This document shows positions 10,284 to 20,129 of a stretch of DNA of 25,288 nt, in pieces. Within the stretch, counting starts at the first letter, position 1; each line of letters starts with the position of its first letter. The position numbers were made by a program, and so were the translations under genes. The DNA comes from a virus. The stretch is from IMG/VR virus record IMGVR_UViG_3300047284_000047, positions 1 to 25,288 of that record; one strand, 5' to 3'. The notes under the pieces are model-generated. The model did no database searches. It saw only the letters and a program-made list of their open reading frames with translations, and was not told where the DNA came from.

Positions 10284-10600
10284 GAGATGACACCAAGCTG
10301 CTCTGGGCGATATTGCGATCTGATGCTTACATTAGCGCCGCGGTTTAACGCACCTTGCACCGCTGCAGCAAAGGCGTCATACCCGTTTTGACCGTCTTCC
10401 ATAATGCGCAGCTCGTCCACTTCATCAGCTTTGCCGTTTTTGTACCACGTCAGCCGAATGACGGCTAGCACATCATCAGGCAGGTTGCAAACGGTGTAAT
10501 CAAGTTCCTGCTTCCTGGGCTTCTTCGGCTCCATCCAGATCATCAGGTCCACTAGCCAGTCTGTCAGCTTGTCCAGCAGACGGTAGATCAAGCCCCGCAT
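10280..10600 (-). CDS. Unknown protein overlapping portal 3' end (106 aa)
   Basis: The 106-residue reading assumes ATG 10600, which has GGAGG nine bases upstream inside the portal gene. That start gives a 101-base overlap with the portal and an amphipathic, aromatic N-terminus (IYRLLDKLTDWLVDLMIWM). Starts at the ATGs at 10543 or 10534 would shorten the overlap but have poorer ribosome binding sites. The core (CNLPDDVLAVIRLTWYKNGK, DELRIMEDGQNGYDA) is clearly coding and has no recognised domain. It couples to the MuF gene by a four-base overlap, so a portal- or head-related role is likely but unproven. Confidence 0.75.
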   Translation of the reverse strand: MRGLIYRLLDKLTDWLVDLMIWMEPKKPRKQELDYTVCNLPDDVLAVIRLTWYKNGKADEVDELRIMEDGQNGYDAFAAAVQGALNRGANVSIRSQYRPEQLGVIS

Positions 10601-11945
10601 TGGATGTGGCCTCCAGCTCCTCGTCTACATCAAAGTTATCGCCCAGTACATCGCCTTCAGCAAGCTCACGCAGCAGTGTCTCTTGGCTGATGGTGCCAGC
10701 GGTGTACAGCGACAGCAGCGCTGCGATGTCTTGCGGTTCAAGGCGTGCACCAAGGAAGTCACGGTTCACGTAAGCACTACCGGCAGCGGTTGCATTGCCC
10801 AGGTAGGTGGCGTGCCACTGCAGGCAGTTGTCGATCATGTCCTGCATGTTTTGGGCGATGACCATCATGGTGCTATCGCCTTGACTGCGATCAATGCGCT
10901 TTGCCTCAGCGGTCTCAGCGCTGAGCTTCTGGCCCAGCACTGCCGATAGGCCCAACTCGTTGATCTGCAACGCAAGCTGCTCAAGCCTGCGGAACTGGTA
11001 ATCAAAGCTGCGGCCTTGCGGTTCGATGTATTCAGCGCGTCCTTCGGCCGGAAACGCGATCGCTTCGCCCGGTCCTGCTGATACCTCCTCAGCGCTTGAC
11101 GGGAACCCGTAAAACGCCAGCATTGGCACGCAGGATACGTGGAGGATGTTGTCGAGGTCGGACTGGATCTGGTAGGTCTTGAGGTTCAGCTCAGCGATGT
11201 CCTCAAGCGGCGGCCGTGACTCCATGAAGCCATGCCGTTGCGCGTATGCAATGGTAAATGGGATCTCGCTGAGGCTGGTGCGGCCTTCGTCAACAACGGT
11301 GAACTCACCGCTGTCCTGCTTGCGGTGGATGCGGTACTCACCAGGCGTTAGCACCCGGATCTGCTCGACAGCCTTTTCGCCAAACTCACCGTCTGGCACC
11401 GTGACCACTTCCGCTAGCCGCAATTGCGTCAGTACCTGCCGGCCTTCTTGGGTTTCAGTGCGCCAGCCAAGGATCTGCCGCGGCGTGTAGGTCACCCAAT
11501 AGGGTCGACCCCCATTAGCTGGTGCATCCACCAATGTACCAACATGGCCATAGCGGACCATTTTGCGGGTTGTTTCATAGGTCCAGACGTTGAGGTCATT
11601 GCCTTGCAGGTCTACATCAAACAGTTGCTCACGGATGGCGTCGGCGGTGTCATCCAGCCTGACTGGTTTACGCGTGAGCATGCCGGCCAGCATGCGCTCA
11701 AGGCGCATGTAATACGGCGGGCAAACGCTACGGGCTAGACGGTTGTCATAGGACTCGTCCAGCTCACGTGGCTCTTGCGGCAGGTAACGGCGATGCTTCT
11801 TACGCATGCCGTAGGTGCCCTGCAGCAGATCCTCAATCAGGATCCAATGCGGCTCTTGCGCGTACCAAGCGGTGTTGGGGTCATTGACCCTAGAAATGGT
11901 GCGCTGAGCTAGCGGCCGGTCATACGCGCTGAAGCCTGTATACAC
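10500..11945 (-). CDS. Portal protein (DUF4055-type)
   Basis: The protein has 481 residues, in the normal range for portals. Visible features include PHWILIEDLLQGTYGMRKKHRRYLP at residues about 33-57, MLAGMLTRKP, a clip/stem-like region around VLGQKLSAETAEAKRIDRSQGDS, and a disordered acidic C-terminus. The N-terminal W..i.dll.Gt..mr.a...YLP pattern is that of DUF4055 portals. The dodecamer forms the vertex through which DNA enters and leaves and to which terminase docks. The start is GTG 11945. It follows terminase, separated by a small membrane protein gene. Confidence 0.92.
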   Translation of the reverse strand: MYTGFSAYDRPLAQRTISRVNDPNTAWYAQEPHWILIEDLLQGTYGMRKKHRRYLPQEPRELDESYDNRLARSVCPPYYMRLERMLAGMLTRKPVRLDDTADAIREQLFDVDLQGNDLNVWTYETTRKMVRYGHVGTLVDAPANGGRPYWVTYTPRQILGWRTETQEGRQVLTQLRLAEVVTVPDGEFGEKAVEQIRVLTPGEYRIHRKQDSGEFTVVDEGRTSLSEIPFTIAYAQRHGFMESRPPLEDIAELNLKTYQIQSDLDNILHVSCVPMLAFYGFPSSAEEVSAGPGEAIAFPAEGRAEYIEPQGRSFDYQFRRLEQLALQINELGLSAVLGQKLSAETAEAKRIDRSQGDSTMMVIAQNMQDMIDNCLQWHATYLGNATAAGSAYVNRDFLGARLEPQDIAALLSLYTAGTISQETLLRELAEGDVLGDNFDVDEELEATSNAGLDLPSAGQADRLASGPDDLDGAEEAQEAGT

Positions 11946-12172: not shown

Positions 12173-13522
12173 CTAGTAGAGCCTGACCCCAGTGCCGCGG
12201 CCGGCGCCAGCGTGCAGTGGGTTGAACTCACGCCACACCAGGTAGCCGAGCGCGTCGTTCATGTGGTCAAACCCAGCATCCTTATCTGGCTCGCCCTTGT
12301 CGTTGTAGCACTGCAGCTCTAGGCACTCGATCACCCGTTTGCAGCCCTGCGCTACCTGCAGCCGCACCTGCCCTTTGCCGTTCTCTAGCAGTGCCTGCAC
12401 AGCTGCTACGCGGTCACGCACTGGCGGATTGCTGCGTGGTGACTGGTTCGACATGCCGTAGGACTCCAGTATTTGGATGTCGGTCTGGCTTGCGTTGGTG
12501 CTGCGGCTGCCACCGCTGGCGTCGGGGTAGACATAGATCTGCTGCTGCGGGTGCCGGCGGCGGATCTCTTGCGCCAAGGCGTCGGTGTCATGCGCGCCGG
12601 CGATTTCGTCAATGACCAGCAGGCCGTTGTTCAACCGAACGGCGATCACGGCAGACATGTTGCCAACGTTGAAGTCAATGCCAACGCGGATCGGTTCTGA
12701 TGCAGTATTTGGCGGCTTCGCAATGCAGTGTTTGTTGCGGTCAAAGCGGTCATAGACCTGCCCAGTGGTCAGGTTGACGAACTCACCGTCGAGGTACGCC
12801 CGCAGCAAGCTGGGGTCGTAGTTGGCCTCTAGCCGCTCGATGAAGTCCGGCGGCAGGTGCGGGTTGTCCGCCGTGCGCATCTTGATCAGCTGCCGGTCTG
12901 GCCTGGCCTTGGCCTCATCACTGCCAAATGTGTTCCACATCCACCGGAACCCTTCTGGCGTCGATGCCGCGCCAAACTGCCGGACATTGCCGCTGCGAAG
13001 TCGGCCAAGGATTTTCGGGAATGCCTTATTGGCAATGCTGGGCGTCACCGTGTCGATCTCATCCGCGAGCACCCAAGCAAGGTTCAGGCCGATGATGCGG
13101 GACCAGTTCTCAAAGCTGCGGCACAGGATTTTGGTGTCACCGCCCGGCAGGTGCAGCATGTACTCGGGCAGCGGGCTAGCGCGGAAGGTGTACGGGATGT
13201 CATACGCCTCAAGAAATGACTCGAAGTCCGTTTGCCAAATATCCCGAATCAGCGGTCCGGTCGGCTCCATCACGCAACCGATAAAGCCCTGATTAACCGC
13301 TGCAAGCATCACAGCCTTGGCGCACAATGCCCTGGTCTTGCCGGCGCCATAGCCTGCGCTGATGCCAAGGATCTGCGTTGCGGTGTCATCGACAAACGCA
13401 AGCTGACCAGGGTGCAAGTCAGCGCGGATGCGGGTGATCAGGTCGTCGGTATCTTCAGGCGTCTGCTGCTGCATGAATGACAGCAGTGGCGCGTCTTCGC
13501 AAATGCCAGCCAGCAGGCTCAC
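12173..13522 (-). CDS. terL: Terminase large subunit
   Basis: The protein has 449 residues. Walker A GYGAGKT at 57-63, Walker B LADEID at 152-157 (catalytic Glu 155), then an RNase H-like nuclease with Asp 283 (GIDFN), Asp 334 (YPDAS) and Asp 423 (HMNDALGY). All expected acidic residues are present, so both ATPase and nuclease should be active. It drives DNA into the prohead through the portal and cuts the concatemer. The GTG start overlaps the small terminase stop (GTGA), which fixes the start. No frameshift or intein. Confidence 0.95.
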   Translation of the reverse strand: MSLLAGICEDAPLLSFMQQQTPEDTDDLITRIRADLHPGQLAFVDDTATQILGISAGYGAGKTRALCAKAVMLAAVNQGFIGCVMEPTGPLIRDIWQTDFESFLEAYDIPYTFRASPLPEYMLHLPGGDTKILCRSFENWSRIIGLNLAWVLADEIDTVTPSIANKAFPKILGRLRSGNVRQFGAASTPEGFRWMWNTFGSDEAKARPDRQLIKMRTADNPHLPPDFIERLEANYDPSLLRAYLDGEFVNLTTGQVYDRFDRNKHCIAKPPNTASEPIRVGIDFNVGNMSAVIAVRLNNGLLVIDEIAGAHDTDALAQEIRRRHPQQQIYVYPDASGGSRSTNASQTDIQILESYGMSNQSPRSNPPVRDRVAAVQALLENGKGQVRLQVAQGCKRVIECLELQCYNDKGEPDKDAGFDHMNDALGYLVWREFNPLHAGAGRGTGVRLY

Positions 13523-13846: not shown

Positions 13847-14887
13847 TTACTCCCGGATTTGAATTGGCATGATGAGGTATGTCTGCTCTGTCATGCTAGT
13901 CGGCCTTAGCACGACCGGTGTCGTTGCACTATTGGCCGACAGTGTAACAGTCTCCGACTGCCGCATGGCCTTCAGGCCATCAAGCAGGTAATGCACGTTG
14001 AACGCCCAAGTGCCAATGGCGTCACCATCGATGGCAATCGTCTCGCGGCCGTTGTTGGCATCGGCCTCGGCGGTAATGGAGACCTTGCCAGCAACGGCGA
14101 CGATTTTAACCACAGAGTTGTGCGCCTCTGCGATCAGGGCAACGCGCTCAAGGCATCGGGTGAACCGGTGCCGGTCCAGGGTCATGGTGTGCTCGAAGGA
14201 CTTGGGCACCAGCGCTGCCACGTCGGGGTACTTGCCGTCAAGGATGCGGCTGTAGATGGTGATGCCATCACCTGCATCGATGACCGCCTGGCCGGCTGCT
14301 GCTGCCACTGTCACCATCCGGTCCTGCAGCAGCTTCATGGTGCTTGCTGGTAGCACCAGGTCAATGCCATCCGGCAGCGCTACGGGGATACGCATGAGCC
14401 GGTGGCCGTCGGTGGCCTCCATGAAGCCGGCTGCCATGTGAATGCCTTGCAGGATCTGCTTGCTGGCGTCGGTGCTGACGGCTGCCATGCAGGCACGCAC
14501 ACCAGCGGTCAGGTCCAACTCAACGTCAGGGGCCTCCACAACGGGCATTGCCGGGTAATCGGCTGCATCACCCGTGGCAAGCCCGTAAGAGCCGCTGGAG
14601 GCGCTCACAGCACCGTCTGACAGCGTCACAGGCTCGCCATCGTCCATGCGGCTGACAAGCCCCGCCAGCAGCCGATACGGCAGCGCCACGGTGCCAGTGG
14701 TGTCCACTGCTGCGGGTACGGACACCGTGATGCCAAGGTCCAGATTGAAGCCGGTGACGGTCATGACACCGGCATCAGCGGCGATGAGGCAACAGCTCAA
14801 GATCGGGTGGCTGTTGCCGGTACCAACGGCTGGGGCAATGGTGCGTAGCGCGTGGGTGAGATCAGCCTGAGTGGTGATGAGTTTCAT
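13847..14887 (-). CDS. dnaN: DNA polymerase III beta sliding clamp-like protein
   Basis: The 346-residue protein is slightly shorter than bacterial clamps (about 365-390). Three clamp repeats can be read: residues 1-120 beginning MKLITTQADL with HPILSCCLIAA, 121-235 with the conserved FMEATDGHRLMRI, and 236-346 with LDGKYPDVAALVPKSF leading in. The end YLIMPIQIRE matches the M-P-M-R-L-type clamp terminus that forms part of the partner-binding pocket. Clamps encircle DNA and hold polymerase. No polymerase is in the window, so it may serve host polymerase III. Start ATG 14887 overlaps the upstream gene. Confidence 0.88.
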   Translation of the reverse strand: MKLITTQADLTHALRTIAPAVGTGNSHPILSCCLIAADAGVMTVTGFNLDLGITVSVPAAVDTTGTVALPYRLLAGLVSRMDDGEPVTLSDGAVSASSGSYGLATGDAADYPAMPVVEAPDVELDLTAGVRACMAAVSTDASKQILQGIHMAAGFMEATDGHRLMRIPVALPDGIDLVLPASTMKLLQDRMVTVAAAAGQAVIDAGDGITIYSRILDGKYPDVAALVPKSFEHTMTLDRHRFTRCLERVALIAEAHNSVVKIVAVAGKVSITAEADANNGRETIAIDGDAIGTWAFNVHYLLDGLKAMRQSETVTLSANSATTPVVLRPTSMTEQTYLIMPIQIRE

Positions 14888-15084
14888 GTGGCGGCATCGG
14901 TAAGGATGGAAACCAGCCGGTGGTAATCGGCTTCAAACGAGGCAACCAGTTCAGCCGGTATGGGCTGCTGGTCATCTTGCGCATTATCGCGGATCGCAGC
15001 GGCGTAGGCAAGCGCATGCTCCATGGCGTCATGAAGCCGGTTGATCACGGGTTGCTGCTTGGCTGGGATGTTGATGAGATCCAT
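14884..15084 (-). CDS. Small helical protein of unknown function (66 aa)
   Basis: ATG 15084 lies 40 bases inside the end of the upstream RHH gene, and the stop overlaps the clamp ATG by four bases. The product is soluble and helical (VINRLHDAMEHALAYAAAIR, then AELVASFEADYHRLVSILTD), with no recognised domain. Translational coupling to the clamp suggests a replication-linked role, but nothing in the sequence proves it. Confidence 0.7.
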   Translation of the reverse strand: MDLINIPAKQQPVINRLHDAMEHALAYAAAIRDNAQDDQQPIPAELVASFEADYHRLVSILTDAAT

Positions 15085-15317
15085 GTAATGACATAAGCGA
15101 CAAGCTGCTCAACCATGCGCCGTGGGATGTCCCCGCGCACATTGGCTAGCGCATCGGACACTAGCCGGTGGTATCGCGCCACGGTGAGGCTACTGTCGCA
15201 ATTCGACACAAGCGCCCGACTGCGGATCAACTCCGCCCGGCTGACACCTGCCATCGCTGCTTGCTGGTCCAGTGCCACCAGGTCCTCAGGCTCAAATCGG
15301 ACTTTGACTTCTTTCAT
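15045..15317 (-). CDS. Ribbon-helix-helix DNA-binding protein (90 aa)
   Basis: ATG 15317 begins MKEVKVRFEPEDLVALDQQA then AMAGVSRAELIRSRALV: a beta strand followed by two helices, the layout of CopG/MetJ-type RHH dimers, in residues 1-40. The remaining 50 residues are helical with an unusual aromatic end (VAYVITWISSTSQPSSNP). A TTG at 15353 in frame would add 12 residues that do not fit the fold. The gene follows a repeat-rich intergenic region of about 260 bases that could hold its operator sites; RHH proteins often control replication genes or copy number. Confidence 0.75.
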   Translation of the reverse strand: MKEVKVRFEPEDLVALDQQAAMAGVSRAELIRSRALVSNCDSSLTVARYHRLVSDALANVRGDIPRRMVEQLVAYVITWISSTSQPSSNP

Positions 15318-15334
15318 CCAGTCACCGTAAGGCA

Positions 15335-15592
15335 GTTCCCCACCTAAAGGCAAGGTGGGACGGGGTGGGGTACCGCCAAAAACCAGTCACAGAGCGGGAG
15401 TTCCCCACGTACCCTACCTAACCCCACCTATATCAAAACAAATAAAGGAATAGAAGGACACGAAGGGAACGTAGGGAAGTTTGAGACCGAGGTGGGACGC
15501 GAACCAGGTAGGGTACCTCGCCAACATCGCCTGCGGCGCAGCGTATCTCGGCGATCAATAGGTGGGGTACCCGTCCCACCTAGGTGGGGTAC
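15335..15592 (+). repeat. Iteron-like repeat cluster with AT-rich core (candidate replication origin)
   Basis: The 262-base gap between the second RHH gene and the primase gene holds about ten copies of a GC-rich motif close to AGGTGGG(G/A)TACC. Forward copies start near 15353, 15363, 15490, 15506, 15560 and 15582; reverse copies lie near 15336-15345, 15400-15410, 15409-15419, 15419-15429 and 15572-15581. Between them, 15428-15460 is AT- and purine-rich (tatcaaaacaaataaagg). Pairs form inverted repeats, such as CCCACCT/AGGTGGG at 15339-15345/15353-15359 and AGGTGGG/CCCACCT at 15560-15566/15575-15581. No gene is seen here. The layout resembles an iteron origin beside its primase; operator clusters are the alternative. 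Confidence 0.6.
15559..15582 (-). terminator. Hairpin at the primase stop codon, possible weak terminator
   Basis: In the leftward transcript the primase stop is part of TAGGTGGG, a 6-7 base loop, then CCCACCTA followed by TTGAT. The 8-base stem is strong, but the T run is poor, and the same bases belong to the repeat cluster. It may reduce read-through from primase into the clamp and late genes, or be only a by-product of the repeats. Confidence 0.3.
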
Positions 15593-17634
15593 TGCCGCCG
15601 GTACACGTACGCCCTGCTTGACCCTTTGCCGCTGCGGTAGCGCTTAAACCCAAGCCGCTTGAGCACGTCCGCAACCTGCATCTGGTCCGCCTTGGTCTGA
15701 CGTTCTACGGGCTTTTTAATGGCCTCAGTAAGCAACTTTTCAGTGGTCAAATCAATCTCGCCGTGCTTACGCAACCAGTCCTCAATTTCAGCCTGCCACG
15801 GGTTATCGACCACGTAAGATTCATTCTCGCTACTTAGCTGCTGCTCATACTCTGCAGGCAGCCGGCTTGTCTCACCTGCACGGTATGCAGCAACAGCAGC
15901 AGACCATATTGCGTCGCGTTCCAGTAATAGCGCGGCGGTATCAATCTGGTCAGCCTGCGTCTTGGTTGTGGGTATGACCCAGAAGCGGCGGTTGCCGGTT
16001 TCGTCCACCAAAAAGCCGGTCGTTCGGTTAGTAGTGCCGACAATAATTCCACGCCTTGGGAATGCCTCAGTGGCCTTGCCATACGGCACGCGAAACATAT
16101 CAACTGCCTGCGATAGGAAAGCCTTGACCTGACCTGCGTGCTTGCGATTAGTCACATGGTCAAGCTCTGCCCACTCCATAATCCATGACCTGTGCAACAC
16201 CATCAGATCATCTTTGCTGCTGATGTCACCCAAGGCATCGCTAAAAAAGTCATGGCCAAGGCACGCCCAAAACGATGACTTGTATGCGCCCTGGTCGCCC
16301 ATGATCACGCATGCTGTGTCGTGTTTGCAGCCAGGGTGATACGCACGGGCAACAGCACCAATCAGGGTGCGCTTGAGCATTTCGTCATAGATCGTGCCGG
16401 GCGTATCATCAGGCCGTAGGTAGCCGGTAGCTAGGGCTTCGATGTAAGCAGGTGCAACCGTGGCGGCAACGCGGTCGAGGTACTCGACAACAGGGTCATA
16501 TGGGGACTCATTGGCCACCTGCACAATGCAGTCCAAGGCGACCTCCTTAGAGACCTTGTAACCCATTTCAGCGAGGGTGAGGTAAAACCGTTCGGCGCCT
16601 TCAATGGGAGCGCCGTCTACCTCAATGCGCTGGGTAAAGGTGTTGTAGCGGTAGCTGCTGTCGCCGTGCCGCAGCAGATTTAGCAGCTCAGCAGCGTTCA
16701 TGGGCTGCAGTTGCGGGTTTACCGCTGACGGCGGCTGCTTGCTTGCAGGCCGCTCACGCCGGACAGGCTCTAATTGCTGCCGCCCGCGCCAGCCGTCTTG
16801 CTTGGCCAGTTGGCCAAGGGTGCCGAGGGTGATGCCACCGCCGGACTTGAACCCGCGCCACTTGTGCTCGCAGTCACCAGGCTTGAACTTGGATGATTGC
16901 GCTGACCAATTGATCCAGTCAGCCAGTAAGGCATCATCAACGCTGTGCAGCGCCATACCCACTTCAAGCCACTGGTCGTAGTCATCAGCACGGCTGGGCT
17001 GCAGCGCTTCGAGGTATGACCGAGCCCGGGCTGTGTCGTCACTGCCGGCAGGAGTCACCAACGGCAACGGCGGCTGAACCGGTTGGCGCAACATGCGTGC
17101 TATCAGGTCCGCCGGTGCCTCGGCAATGCCCACATCGCTTGGCGACCGACCTGGCACCCAGCTATATCCAGAGGTCAATGGGTGCGCCCCGGCAATGACG
17201 GACTGGCAGCCATCCCAGCGCAGCTCAACCTGCTCAGGCTTGCCTTCGCTGTCAATGACGCCAGTTTTGTACTTACGGGTGCGGATGTCTGCCCAGTACT
17301 GCTGAGGCACTTGGTAGATGATCTGAAACCGCCCGTCGCGGCCACTGGTTACGGTCCAGGACGGAGGCAACGAACTGACTGGAATGCCCCAGTCGTCAAA
17401 CAACCGCGACGCGGACTTGCCGTCATGGTCAACAAACAGCAAGCCACCGCTGAGGGTGCCGCAGCAGACGCCAATTGCCTTGGCGCGGCCTGACTTCAGC
17501 TCATTACCAAGCTGGGCGCGAGTGATGTGGCCATCTTGCCAATCCTTGATGTATGGCCGTTTTTCGCCATCAACTGGCACATAAGACCAGTCTCGTGGCA
17601 GCTTCATCAGCTGCGCTAACAGGTCGCTACTCAT
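15580..17634 (-). CDS. Primase-polymerase / VirE-type helicase fusion
   Basis: The protein has 684 residues. The N-terminal bifunctional primase-polymerase domain (about 5-185) has the metal-site pair D69 and D71 in FVDHDG, and later AGAHP. A PriCT-like segment (about 210-275) contains DDYDQWLEVGMALHSV. The C-terminal VirE/DUF5906-type AAA+ domain has Walker A GDQGAYKS at 446-453, a WAEL Walker B and GTTNRTTGFLVDETGNRRFW near the end. It should prime and unwind DNA at the phage origin. ATG 17634 overlaps the stop of the RHH gene, so the two are co-expressed. The repeat cluster at its 3' end may be the origin it acts on. Confidence 0.9.
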   Translation of the reverse strand: MSSDLLAQLMKLPRDWSYVPVDGEKRPYIKDWQDGHITRAQLGNELKSGRAKAIGVCCGTLSGGLLFVDHDGKSASRLFDDWGIPVSSLPPSWTVTSGRDGRFQIIYQVPQQYWADIRTRKYKTGVIDSEGKPEQVELRWDGCQSVIAGAHPLTSGYSWVPGRSPSDVGIAEAPADLIARMLRQPVQPPLPLVTPAGSDDTARARSYLEALQPSRADDYDQWLEVGMALHSVDDALLADWINWSAQSSKFKPGDCEHKWRGFKSGGGITLGTLGQLAKQDGWRGRQQLEPVRRERPASKQPPSAVNPQLQPMNAAELLNLLRHGDSSYRYNTFTQRIEVDGAPIEGAERFYLTLAEMGYKVSKEVALDCIVQVANESPYDPVVEYLDRVAATVAPAYIEALATGYLRPDDTPGTIYDEMLKRTLIGAVARAYHPGCKHDTACVIMGDQGAYKSSFWACLGHDFFSDALGDISSKDDLMVLHRSWIMEWAELDHVTNRKHAGQVKAFLSQAVDMFRVPYGKATEAFPRRGIIVGTTNRTTGFLVDETGNRRFWVIPTTKTQADQIDTAALLLERDAIWSAAVAAYRAGETSRLPAEYEQQLSSENESYVVDNPWQAEIEDWLRKHGEIDLTTEKLLTEAIKKPVERQTKADQMQVADVLKRLGFKRYRSGKGSSRAYVYRRQYPT

Positions 17635-17804
17635 GACTCACGACGCCCAGTTGCTGGCAACAGGCCGCGGCTGTGCAGCTCCATGGACTGCTGCAGCAGC
17701 AACCTGATAGCGGTGCCACGAGACATGCGGTCACCACGCCAAGAGTCCAGCCATTGCAATTGGTCTGGCGACAGGCGCACTGGTGTTGGATGGGCTAATC
17801 GCAT
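17631..17804 (-). CDS. Ribbon-helix-helix type regulator (57 aa)
   Basis: The frame from ATG 17804 reads MRLAHPTPVRLSPDQLQWLD, then SWRGDRMSRGTAIRLLLQQS and a basic end. The strand TPVRLSPDQLQWLDSW followed by two helices with SRGTAIRLLL is the CopG/Arc-like ribbon-helix-helix pattern. Its stop overlaps the primase start (ATGA), so it is the first gene of the leftward arm. Divergent promoters with a central inverted repeat lie directly upstream, so autoregulation and control of both arms is a reasonable inference. Confidence 0.75.
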   Translation of the reverse strand: MRLAHPTPVRLSPDQLQWLDSWRGDRMSRGTAIRLLLQQSMELHSRGLLPATGRRES

Positions 17805-17821: not shown

Positions 17822-17850
17822 TTGCACACTGTAGCCGGGGCTGCTACGCT
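17822..17850 (+). promoter_or_regulatory. Rightward promoter for helicase-methyltransferase operon
   Basis: TTGCAC (17822-17827), 17 bases, TACGCT (17845-17850). The -10 resembles the TAnnnT elements of the other promoters in this window. Transcription would start near 17857, about 14 bases before ATG 17871, which excludes the upstream TTG at 17850 as the start. The leader is too short for a good ribosome binding site and none is visible. Confidence 0.5.
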
Positions 17851-17855
17851 TGCAA
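17828..17855 (-). promoter_or_regulatory. Leftward promoter for RHH-primase operon
   Basis: On the minus strand TTGCAA (17850-17855) is followed after 16 bases by TACAGT (17828-17833, 4 of 6 to TATAAT). Expected start near 17821, about 17 bases before ATG 17804. It interleaves face to face with the rightward promoter, so polymerase could bind only one at a time. Confidence 0.5.
17831..17847. promoter_or_regulatory. Inverted-repeat operator candidate between divergent promoters
   Basis: GTAGC, 7 bases, GCTAC, with an inner palindrome AGCC-GG-GGCT at 17833-17842. It sits in the spacers of both promoters, where a bound RHH dimer pair would block both. The neighbouring RHH protein is the obvious candidate ligand; binding is inferred. 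Confidence 0.45.
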
Positions 17856-17870
17856 GGCCACACGGCAGCT

Positions 17871-20129
17871 ATGACCTACAAAGACTTCCTAGCCTCCAAA
17901 TCCACCACCTGCCCTGCTGCTGGCTTTGATCCGCAGCAGTTCACGGCGCCGCTGTTTCCGTTTCAGCGGGACATCGTCACCATGGCTTGCCGCGTTGGCA
18001 GGTTCTGCATCTGGGCTGACTGCGGCATGGGCAAAACCGCAATGCAGCTTGAATGGGCGCATCAGGTGCATCAGCACACTGGCGGCAACGTATTGGTGCT
18101 GGCGCCGCTGGCCGTGGCGCATCAGACCGTGCGCGAGGGCAGCAAGTTCGGCATCTCATGCGCATTCGCTGCAACGCAAGCCGAGGTCAAGCCCGGTATT
18201 ACGGTCACCAACTACGAAAAGCTCAGCCACTTTGAACCGGCTGCCTTCGCCGGCGTGGTGCTCGATGAGAGCAGCATCCTCAAGGCGTACACCGGCAAGA
18301 TCCGCAACCAGATCATCGAGTCATTTGCGCAGACACCATTTCGCCTGGCATGCTCGGCCACGCCAGCGCCCAATGACCACATGGAGCTTGGCAACCATGC
18401 CGAGTTCATCGGTGTGATGACCAGGACTGAGATGCTGGCCATGTTCTTCGTCCATGACGGCGGCGACACCAGCAAGTGGCGGCTCAAGGGGCACGCAAAA
18501 GACAAGTTCTGGGAATGGGTCTGCAGTTGGGCTGTCACTATCCGCAAGCCGTCAGACCTGAACTACGAGGACGGCAACTTCATCCTGCCCGATCTGCGAA
18601 TCCAAGACTGCACGGTGGAAACACCACGCGAGGCTACGGCCGACGAAGCCGGCCAGATGGCGCTGTTTGCCATGGAAGCCCGCACCCTGAGCGATCAGCG
18701 TCATGTGCGCAAGGCATCGCTGCAGATGCGCGTCGATGCAGCCGCAGCCCTGGCCAACAACAGCGCAGAGCAATGGCTGATCTGGTGTGATCTCAACGAC
18801 GAGTCCAAGGCGCTGGCTGCTGCCATTGATGGCGCAGTTGAGGTGTCAGGCAGCGACAGCGACGACCATAAGCGCCGTGCCGCGATTGACTTTCAAGATG
18901 GCAAGATCCGCGTTCTGGTCAGTAAGCCCAGCATTTTTGGGTTTGGCCTGAACTTTCAAGGTTGCCACAACGTCGCTTTCGTTGGCCTTTCTCACAGCTA
19001 CGAGGCTTTTTATCAGGCCATCCGCAGGTGCTGGCGATTTGGGCAGCAGCACCCGGTTAACGCACACATCATCTACGACGTGGCCGAGGGTCGCGTGATC
19101 GAAAACATCCGTCGCAAGGAAGCGGACAGCATCGCAATGGCTGAATCAATGGTCACCATCATGAAGCAAACCACCATGGAACAACTCAAGAAGATCCAGC
19201 GCCAGGTTGCGCCGCACATCACTGAGCACAAGTCCGGCGACAACTGGGACCTGTACATGGGCGACTGCGTTGAAAGCATCAAGCAGCTCGACTCAGACAG
19301 CATCCACTACAGCATCTTCAGCCCACCTTTTGCATCGCTTTACACCTACTCCAACAGCGACCGCGACATGGGCAACAGCCGCAACGATCAGGAGTTTTTC
19401 GATCACTTCGTCTACTTGGCTAAAGAGCTGCATCGAGTGCTGATGCCTGGCAGGTTGATCAGCTTCCACTGCATGAACCTGCCTAGCAGCAAAGAGCGCG
19501 ATGGCTTCATTGGCGTCAAGGACTTTCGCGGCGACATGCTGCGCATCTTCCAGGCGGCAGGGTTTGTGTTCCACTCAGAGGTCTGCATCTGGAAGGACCC
19601 CGTCACCGCGATGCAGCGCACCAAGGCAATCGGCCTGCTGCACAAACAGATCCGCAAGGACTCAGCATTGAGCCGTCAGGGCATCCCTGACTACTTGGTC
19701 ACGGTGCGCAAGCTGGGCGATAACCCTGAGCCATGCGCTGGCCCGTTCACTGAGTTTGCTGGCGAGAACCCACCAGCCAAGACAGGCGACGCCATCAAGG
19801 ACAGCATCAACATCTGGCAGCGGTATGCCAGTCCGGTGTGGATGGACATTAACCCATCCGATACATTGCAGTACCGCAGCGCCCGCGCCAATGATGACGA
19901 GCGGCACATTTGTCCGCTGCAGCTTGAGGTGATCCGCCGCGGACTGCAGCTATGGAGCAACCCAGGCGATCTGGTGCTCAGCCCATTTGCGGGCATCGGC
20001 AGCGAGGGATACGTCAGCCTGCAGATGCAACGCCGGTTCGTCGGCTTTGAGCTGAAGCCCAGCTACTTCAACTGCGCAGTTAAAAATCTGCAGTCGGTTG
20101 AGTCGCATAAACAGGGGGAGCTGGTGTGA
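17871..20129 (+). CDS. SF2/SNF2-type helicase fused to DNA methyltransferase
   Basis: The protein has 752 residues from ATG 17871. The helicase part has GMGKT at 52-56, DESS at 132-135, SATPAPND at 162-169 and RRCWRFGQ at 385-392, typical of SNF2-like ATPases. After about residue 450 a methyltransferase follows: SPPF at 484-487 (catalytic motif IV) and FAGIG at 706-710 (SAM-binding motif I). Motif IV before motif I marks a beta-class amino-methyltransferase, N4-cytosine or N6-adenine. No restriction nuclease domain is fused, but a VRR-NUC gene lies two genes on. It may protect phage DNA from restriction, as the differently ordered P1 DarB does, or modify DNA while tracking along it. First gene of the rightward operon. 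Confidence 0.9.
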   Translation: MTYKDFLASKSTTCPAAGFDPQQFTAPLFPFQRDIVTMACRVGRFCIWADCGMGKTAMQLEWAHQVHQHTGGNVLVLAPLAVAHQTVREGSKFGISCAFAATQAEVKPGITVTNYEKLSHFEPAAFAGVVLDESSILKAYTGKIRNQIIESFAQTPFRLACSATPAPNDHMELGNHAEFIGVMTRTEMLAMFFVHDGGDTSKWRLKGHAKDKFWEWVCSWAVTIRKPSDLNYEDGNFILPDLRIQDCTVETPREATADEAGQMALFAMEARTLSDQRHVRKASLQMRVDAAAALANNSAEQWLIWCDLNDESKALAAAIDGAVEVSGSDSDDHKRRAAIDFQDGKIRVLVSKPSIFGFGLNFQGCHNVAFVGLSHSYEAFYQAIRRCWRFGQQHPVNAHIIYDVAEGRVIENIRRKEADSIAMAESMVTIMKQTTMEQLKKIQRQVAPHITEHKSGDNWDLYMGDCVESIKQLDSDSIHYSIFSPPFASLYTYSNSDRDMGNSRNDQEFFDHFVYLAKELHRVLMPGRLISFHCMNLPSSKERDGFIGVKDFRGDMLRIFQAAGFVFHSEVCIWKDPVTAMQRTKAIGLLHKQIRKDSALSRQGIPDYLVTVRKLGDNPEPCAGPFTEFAGENPPAKTGDAIKDSINIWQRYASPVWMDINPSDTLQYRSARANDDERHICPLQLEVIRRGLQLWSNPGDLVLSPFAGIGSEGYVSLQMQRRFVGFELKPSYFNCAVKNLQSVESHKQGELV

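Follow-up and report, generated by a model that had tools for sequence, protein, structure and literature searches.

The repeat array immediately 3′ of a primase-helicase gene in this phage is quite likely its replication origin, an iteron origin built like those of SaPIs/PICIs and recognised by the initiator's own C-terminal domain; binding and origin activity are what we infer. The window, i.e., the whole stretch of DNA analysed (25,288 bases), is an IMG/VR record classed as without end repeats or with none stated and is therefore probably a fragment. Its relevant features are the following:

10500-11945: portal gene
12173-13522, minus strand: terminase large subunit gene
13847-14887, minus strand: DNA polymerase III beta-type sliding clamp gene (Pfam DNA_pol3_beta domains), unmoved by cassette exchange
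15045-15317, minus strand: downstream RHH gene (NikA-like/CopG-type), with a Pfam NikA-like match at 3.4e-5, below the cut-off
15335-15592: iteron array and candidate replication origin, with nine exact AGGTRGGR sites in both orientations
15374-15399: hairpin-like spacer on the RHH side of the core, with variants common to several initiator types
15418-15457: AT-rich core (65% AT) separating the two sets of iterons, a candidate for the site of melting
15518-15558: hairpin-like spacer on the primase side of the core
15580-17634, minus strand: type A initiator, a primase-helicase of 684 aa (Pfam PriCT_2 7.8e-24, VapE-like 7.7e-64)
15595-15798, minus strand: C-terminal domain of the initiator (aa 613-680), predicted winged helix and proposed iteron-reading domain
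17631-17804, minus strand: small upstream ORF of 57 aa, RHH-like by sequence pattern, with an ATGA overlap with the initiator start

The window belongs to a virus of freshwater cyanobacteria, a relative of the cultured freshwater Synechococcus phage S-LBS1, to whose primase its own is 51.5% identical. Head, portal, terminase, and tape measure-like genes form a tailed-phage set, and the terminase large subunit marks the element as a tailed phage and not a satellite. The possibility that the element itself is a PICI was rejected, since it has its own terminase, portal, tape measure-like, and head genes.

The exact motif AGGTRGGR occurs nine times in the whole window, and all nine sites fall within 15338-15589, five on the plus strand (15353, 15490, 15506, 15560, and 15582) and four on the minus strand (15338, 15412, 15422, and 15574). 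When one mismatch was allowed, 12 sites were found in 15318-15600 versus three or fewer per 283-bp stretch elsewhere in the window. These counts bear out the initial annotation, which had described AGGTGGG-like copies in both orientations around an AT-rich core. Repeated 7-mers on both strands formed 84 pairs in the array region, against a mean of 9 and a largest value of 35 in 1000 dinucleotide shuffles. The core, at 15418-15457, is kept in near relatives as TATTCCTTTATTTGTTTTGATATA (minus strand); one alignment row (L145) was excluded from this comparison and from the covariation analysis. The array lies between the stop codon of the primase-helicase gene (15580-17634, minus strand) and the ATG of the RHH gene (15317, minus strand). 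This stretch had been called non-coding. The description holds for most near relatives, in which the primase stops four codons earlier (YRK*YPT*) and the array is thus wholly non-coding, but not for the window, where the final iteron copy (15582-15592) lies inside the primase reading frame.

Searching viral contigs with the primase and the RHH protein as queries yielded 155 loci. Alignment with related phages showed the array, 265-280 bp long, at the same place in most near relatives. The motif search beyond the array, which found no exact site elsewhere in the window, gave the same picture in larger genomes: of the 48 AGGTRGGG sites in eight relatives of 31-42 kb, 46 belong to the array. Across type A initiators that are 52-100% identical, the core AGGTNRG is kept and the surrounding letters drift with the subtype; perfect copies per locus number 1.5 to 3 in the most distant type A subtypes versus 9.6 in the window's subtype. 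S-LBS1 carries 18 AGGT-type sites after its primase. No RHH protein of the downstream-RHH family and no clamp were detected beside that array, and the terminase small subunit is the next gene in the record. A Cyanobium contig offers a third gene setting, with the array 3′ of a 48% identical initiator and the RHH gene seemingly absent. GC skew, also proposed as a check, had neither a minimum nor a maximum at the array when seven relatives of ~40-42 kb were analysed; in mosaic genomes this small, such a result counts for little in either direction.

Spacers within the arrays are also recurrent. All 15 matches to the spacer element CAGTSATACCAAGG in 1.46 Mb of loci, some of them redundant, fell inside arrays. 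The spacer hairpins of arrays that belong to unrelated initiators are drawn from a small common set (the window, L059, L057, L084, L083, and L205).

Three different primase-helicases (types A, B, and C) occupy one slot, and the array differs with the type: AGGTRGG repeats in type A, GGACGCAA repeats in type B, and CCTAACG repeats in type C, where 30 of 37 repeat sites in the larger genomes lie in the array. In the type B initiator (789 aa), D5_N is present and the C-terminus of P4-family primases is matched in part; the type C initiator (830 aa) carries a zinc ribbon of the primase kind and matches Toprim weakly. As in type A, both arrays lie 3′ of the initiator, with opposite orientations around an AT-rich core. 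The cultured Synechococcus phage S-H1 (host strain WH 7803) has a type C initiator, array, RHH-like gene, clamp, and terminase in order. At some type B and C loci, the RHH protein is 92-97% identical to that of the window, the clamp matches, and another gene replaces the primase. DNA identity ends at the initiator ATG and restarts at the RHH ATG; most pairs switch precisely there, the others within 2 to 6 bases. The ATG of the downstream RHH gene is thus the 3′ junction of the exchanged cassette, and the ORF at 17631-17804, absent from the initial annotation, is its 5′ junction. Relatives of this RHH-like ORF were found at 132 loci, mostly immediately before the initiator; the window copy has no Pfam match, and one family member matched RHH_1 at E=0.13 only.

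The motif follows the initiator type at 84 distinct loci (64 of type A, 7 of type B, and 13 of type C), and among them no array parted from its own initiator type was seen. Between pairs whose RHH proteins are at least 90% identical, repeat profiles resemble each other within types but not between them (mean cosine 0.74 versus 0.10). A tree of 62 clamps requires about 17 changes of initiator type, compared with 19.4 when the labels are shuffled, and its supported branches force at least eight changes for type A. The nearness of 17 to the shuffled value points to many separate cassette exchanges, although the count is rough because recombination can affect the clamp gene too. At L028 (2241-2778), and also at L030 and L031, a hybrid array is followed by a leftover coding piece resembling the C-terminal winged helix of another initiator, probably the scar of a cassette exchange.

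Since the array sits next to the initiator gene, their joint inheritance could by itself be a product of linkage; this pattern is better at excluding the RHH protein as the reader than at proving the initiator. The initial annotation suggested binding assays with the CopG-like protein; as the specific reader of the repeats, this protein finds no support here. The protein is near-identical, and its DNA-reading strand KEVKVRF identical, beside all three unrelated repeat types, which makes it a very unlikely reader. The repeat type is thus independent of the RHH protein. A relative of this protein at L083 passes the Pfam NikA-like and RHH_1 cut-offs. Short repeats are often bound by RHH regulators, and here the array precedes the start codon of the RHH gene, with the last iteron of types B and C ending ~5 bases or less from the ATG. 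The repeats might on these grounds be operators of the downstream RHH gene, serving autoregulation or as a centromere-like array, and not an origin. Such a role is very improbable given the invariant reading strand, the arrays that occur without the RHH gene in S-LBS1 and seemingly in the Cyanobium contig, the lack of ParA in 18 records, and the lack of a sigma-70-type promoter at 15200-15700. A replicon of the CopG/RHH-controlled plasmid kind was rejected on comparative evidence that the repeats are very unlikely to be RHH-specific.

The initiator is very likely the natural reader of the repeats, by analogy with satellite systems. In SaPIs, the C-terminal domain of Rep recognises iterons directly downstream of its gene (PMC7581432), and a PICI origin, located directly 3′ of the initiator, consists of an AT-rich region with an iteron set on either side (PMC6092414). 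This plan was once said to be common to no known replicon except PICIs (PMC6092414). The window matches it in having the array immediately 3′ of the initiator gene, two sets flanking an AT-rich region, a primase-helicase of the VapE/D5 kind, and 7pds, a PriRep1/VapE helicase with dsDNA, as the nearest solved relative by profile (E=1.4e-29). It differs in being a tailed cyanophage with its own terminase, portal, tail, and clamp genes and with three exchangeable initiator types.

The C-terminal domain of the initiator is predicted to be a winged helix from its topology and from weak Foldseek scores. AlphaFold2 modelled it with a pLDDT of 79.5 and the element order H-(E)-H-H-E-E, i.e., the winged-helix order, and Foldseek returned mostly winged-helix proteins, including the C-terminal part of 7pds, none of them with E<0.1. 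The full-length model was poor (pLDDT 51.5) and usable at the C-terminus only; the S-LBS1 row was left out of the alignment for structure prediction. For this domain alone, Pfam gave chance matches only and a PDB sequence search gave nothing useful. By our reading, the N-terminus is PrimPol-like. The N-terminal 297 aa share ~43% identity with the replication protein CyRepA1 from small Synechococcus elongatus plasmids, a likeness suggesting that phage and plasmid initiators have domains in common. The closest design is nonetheless that of SaPI/PICI and not of a CopG-controlled plasmid.

We propose that the primase-helicase would bind the two opposed AGGTRGGR iteron sets through its C-terminal winged helix. 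The VapE-type helicase could then assemble on both sides and open the AT-rich core, where the PrimPol part of the initiator would prime. The phage clamp might thereafter work with a DNA polymerase, probably that of the host.

Such arrays are also found in full phages. APSE-1 and Enterococcus phage phiFL4A have repeat arrays 3′ of a VapE/VirE-domain gene (172 repeated 7-mer pairs versus 25 by chance and 150 versus 22, respectively), although their repeat sequences and hosts are unrelated to those of the window. The plan is thus not limited to satellites. A repeat array 3′ of the VapE gene of RcWhiteOak was marginal, and none was found after the VapE gene in Phormidium and Nostoc plasmids, after CyRepA1 in a Synechococcus elongatus plasmid, or in vB_Pae_U5. 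The alpha protein of phage P4 likewise unites primase, helicase, and a winged helix binding at origin repeats in a single protein (PMC4234260). The P4 primase, however, is of the Toprim kind, which type C resembles more than type A does. In the PLE satellites of Vibrio cholerae, initiator and cognate iterons are swapped as a module between otherwise similar elements (PMC8263062), an exchange linked to escape from an origin-cutting nuclease (PMC8263062). In contrast to the initiators here, that of PLE is a RepA_N protein without predicted helicase or primase (PMC7145576).

The Sulfolobus plasmid pRN1 has a similar gene order, with a repressor gene followed by a PrimPol-helicase with a C-terminal winged helix and an origin element downstream (PMC4234260). 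There orf56 precedes orf904, as the 57-aa RHH-like ORF precedes the initiator here. The pRN1 element is, in contrast, a stem-loop without iterons, and stem-loops have been proposed for phage relatives with PriCT_2 (PMC4234260). A large stem-loop downstream of the primase-helicase could therefore be the functional element, with the repeats as its arms, and the array strand does fold better than shuffles (z=-4.4). However, opposed iterons pair by themselves, and several same-strand repeat copies are needless for a stem. Covariation accounts for only -2.0 kcal/mol out of -51, and the compensated pairs, 6 of 54, are mostly in or beside iterons. Because of this, a pRN1-type origin is as improbable as RHH operators. 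A conserved stem-loop free of iterons was rejected, as iterons are present and there is little independent covariation.

The location between two gene groups would also suit a switch in transcription, or a terminator, separating the primase from the RHH-clamp-terminase operon; the initiator would then read the repeats as a regulator only. One weak terminator-like hairpin lies at 15409-15388 on the minus strand, but the count at the array is within chance (1 versus 0.4 expected, sd 0.7), and two iteron sets with an AT-rich core match the origins of same-family initiators and not operators (PMC6092414). We regard this role as highly unlikely. An Rfam search of the whole window gave no matches. 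A packaging (pac/cos) site is scarcely credible, since the repeat type tracks the primase-helicase while the clamp/terminase side stays constant through exchanges, even though the terminase genes lie 1.5 kb away and the terminase small subunit is the next gene in S-LBS1.

An iteron-type origin beside the primase, the central proposal of the initial annotation, has strong support from where the array lies, from its uniqueness within the genome and its conservation, and from the joint exchange of initiator and array. The episomal persistence proposed alongside it is unsupported. ParA was found in none of 18 records (searched with one ParA model; the window and several records may be fragments), a tyrosine integrase was found in three of the 18, including S-LBS1, and none in the window, and ordinary tailed-phage genes surround the array.

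To our knowledge, few cyanophage origins are known. The paper on S-LBS1 makes no mention of repeats or an origin (PMC6157547). The iteron origin design itself is ordinary; what is unusual is the clarity with which repeated cassette exchange ties the initiator to its own repeats. In effect, a natural exchange experiment has been run many times, with three initiator types and their respective iterons placed in near-identical surroundings, and an origin plan like that of PICIs is present in full phages. As initiator and matching repeats are swapped as one cassette, the rule of initiator-origin matching becomes directly testable, as do the drivers of module exchange in phages, the cultured phages S-LBS1 and S-H1 being available. 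A rather doubtful possibility, which we raise tentatively, is diversifying selection on the initiator-origin cassette: its three unrelated types would be exchanged repeatedly because one iteron type or another is targeted by some agent among the hosts, be it decoy origins, nucleases that cut origins, satellites, or co-infecting phages. In this view, the hairpin common to unrelated arrays would be a place where a shared host or phage factor lands.

Two further observations concern S-LBS1. The terminal part of its record (L157, 34237-34641) duplicates a stretch from the array, which may be an assembly effect at the repeats. Its helicase and N6/N4 DNA methylase are separate (A49 and A50), whereas in the window they are fused in one plus-strand ORF at 17850-20129.
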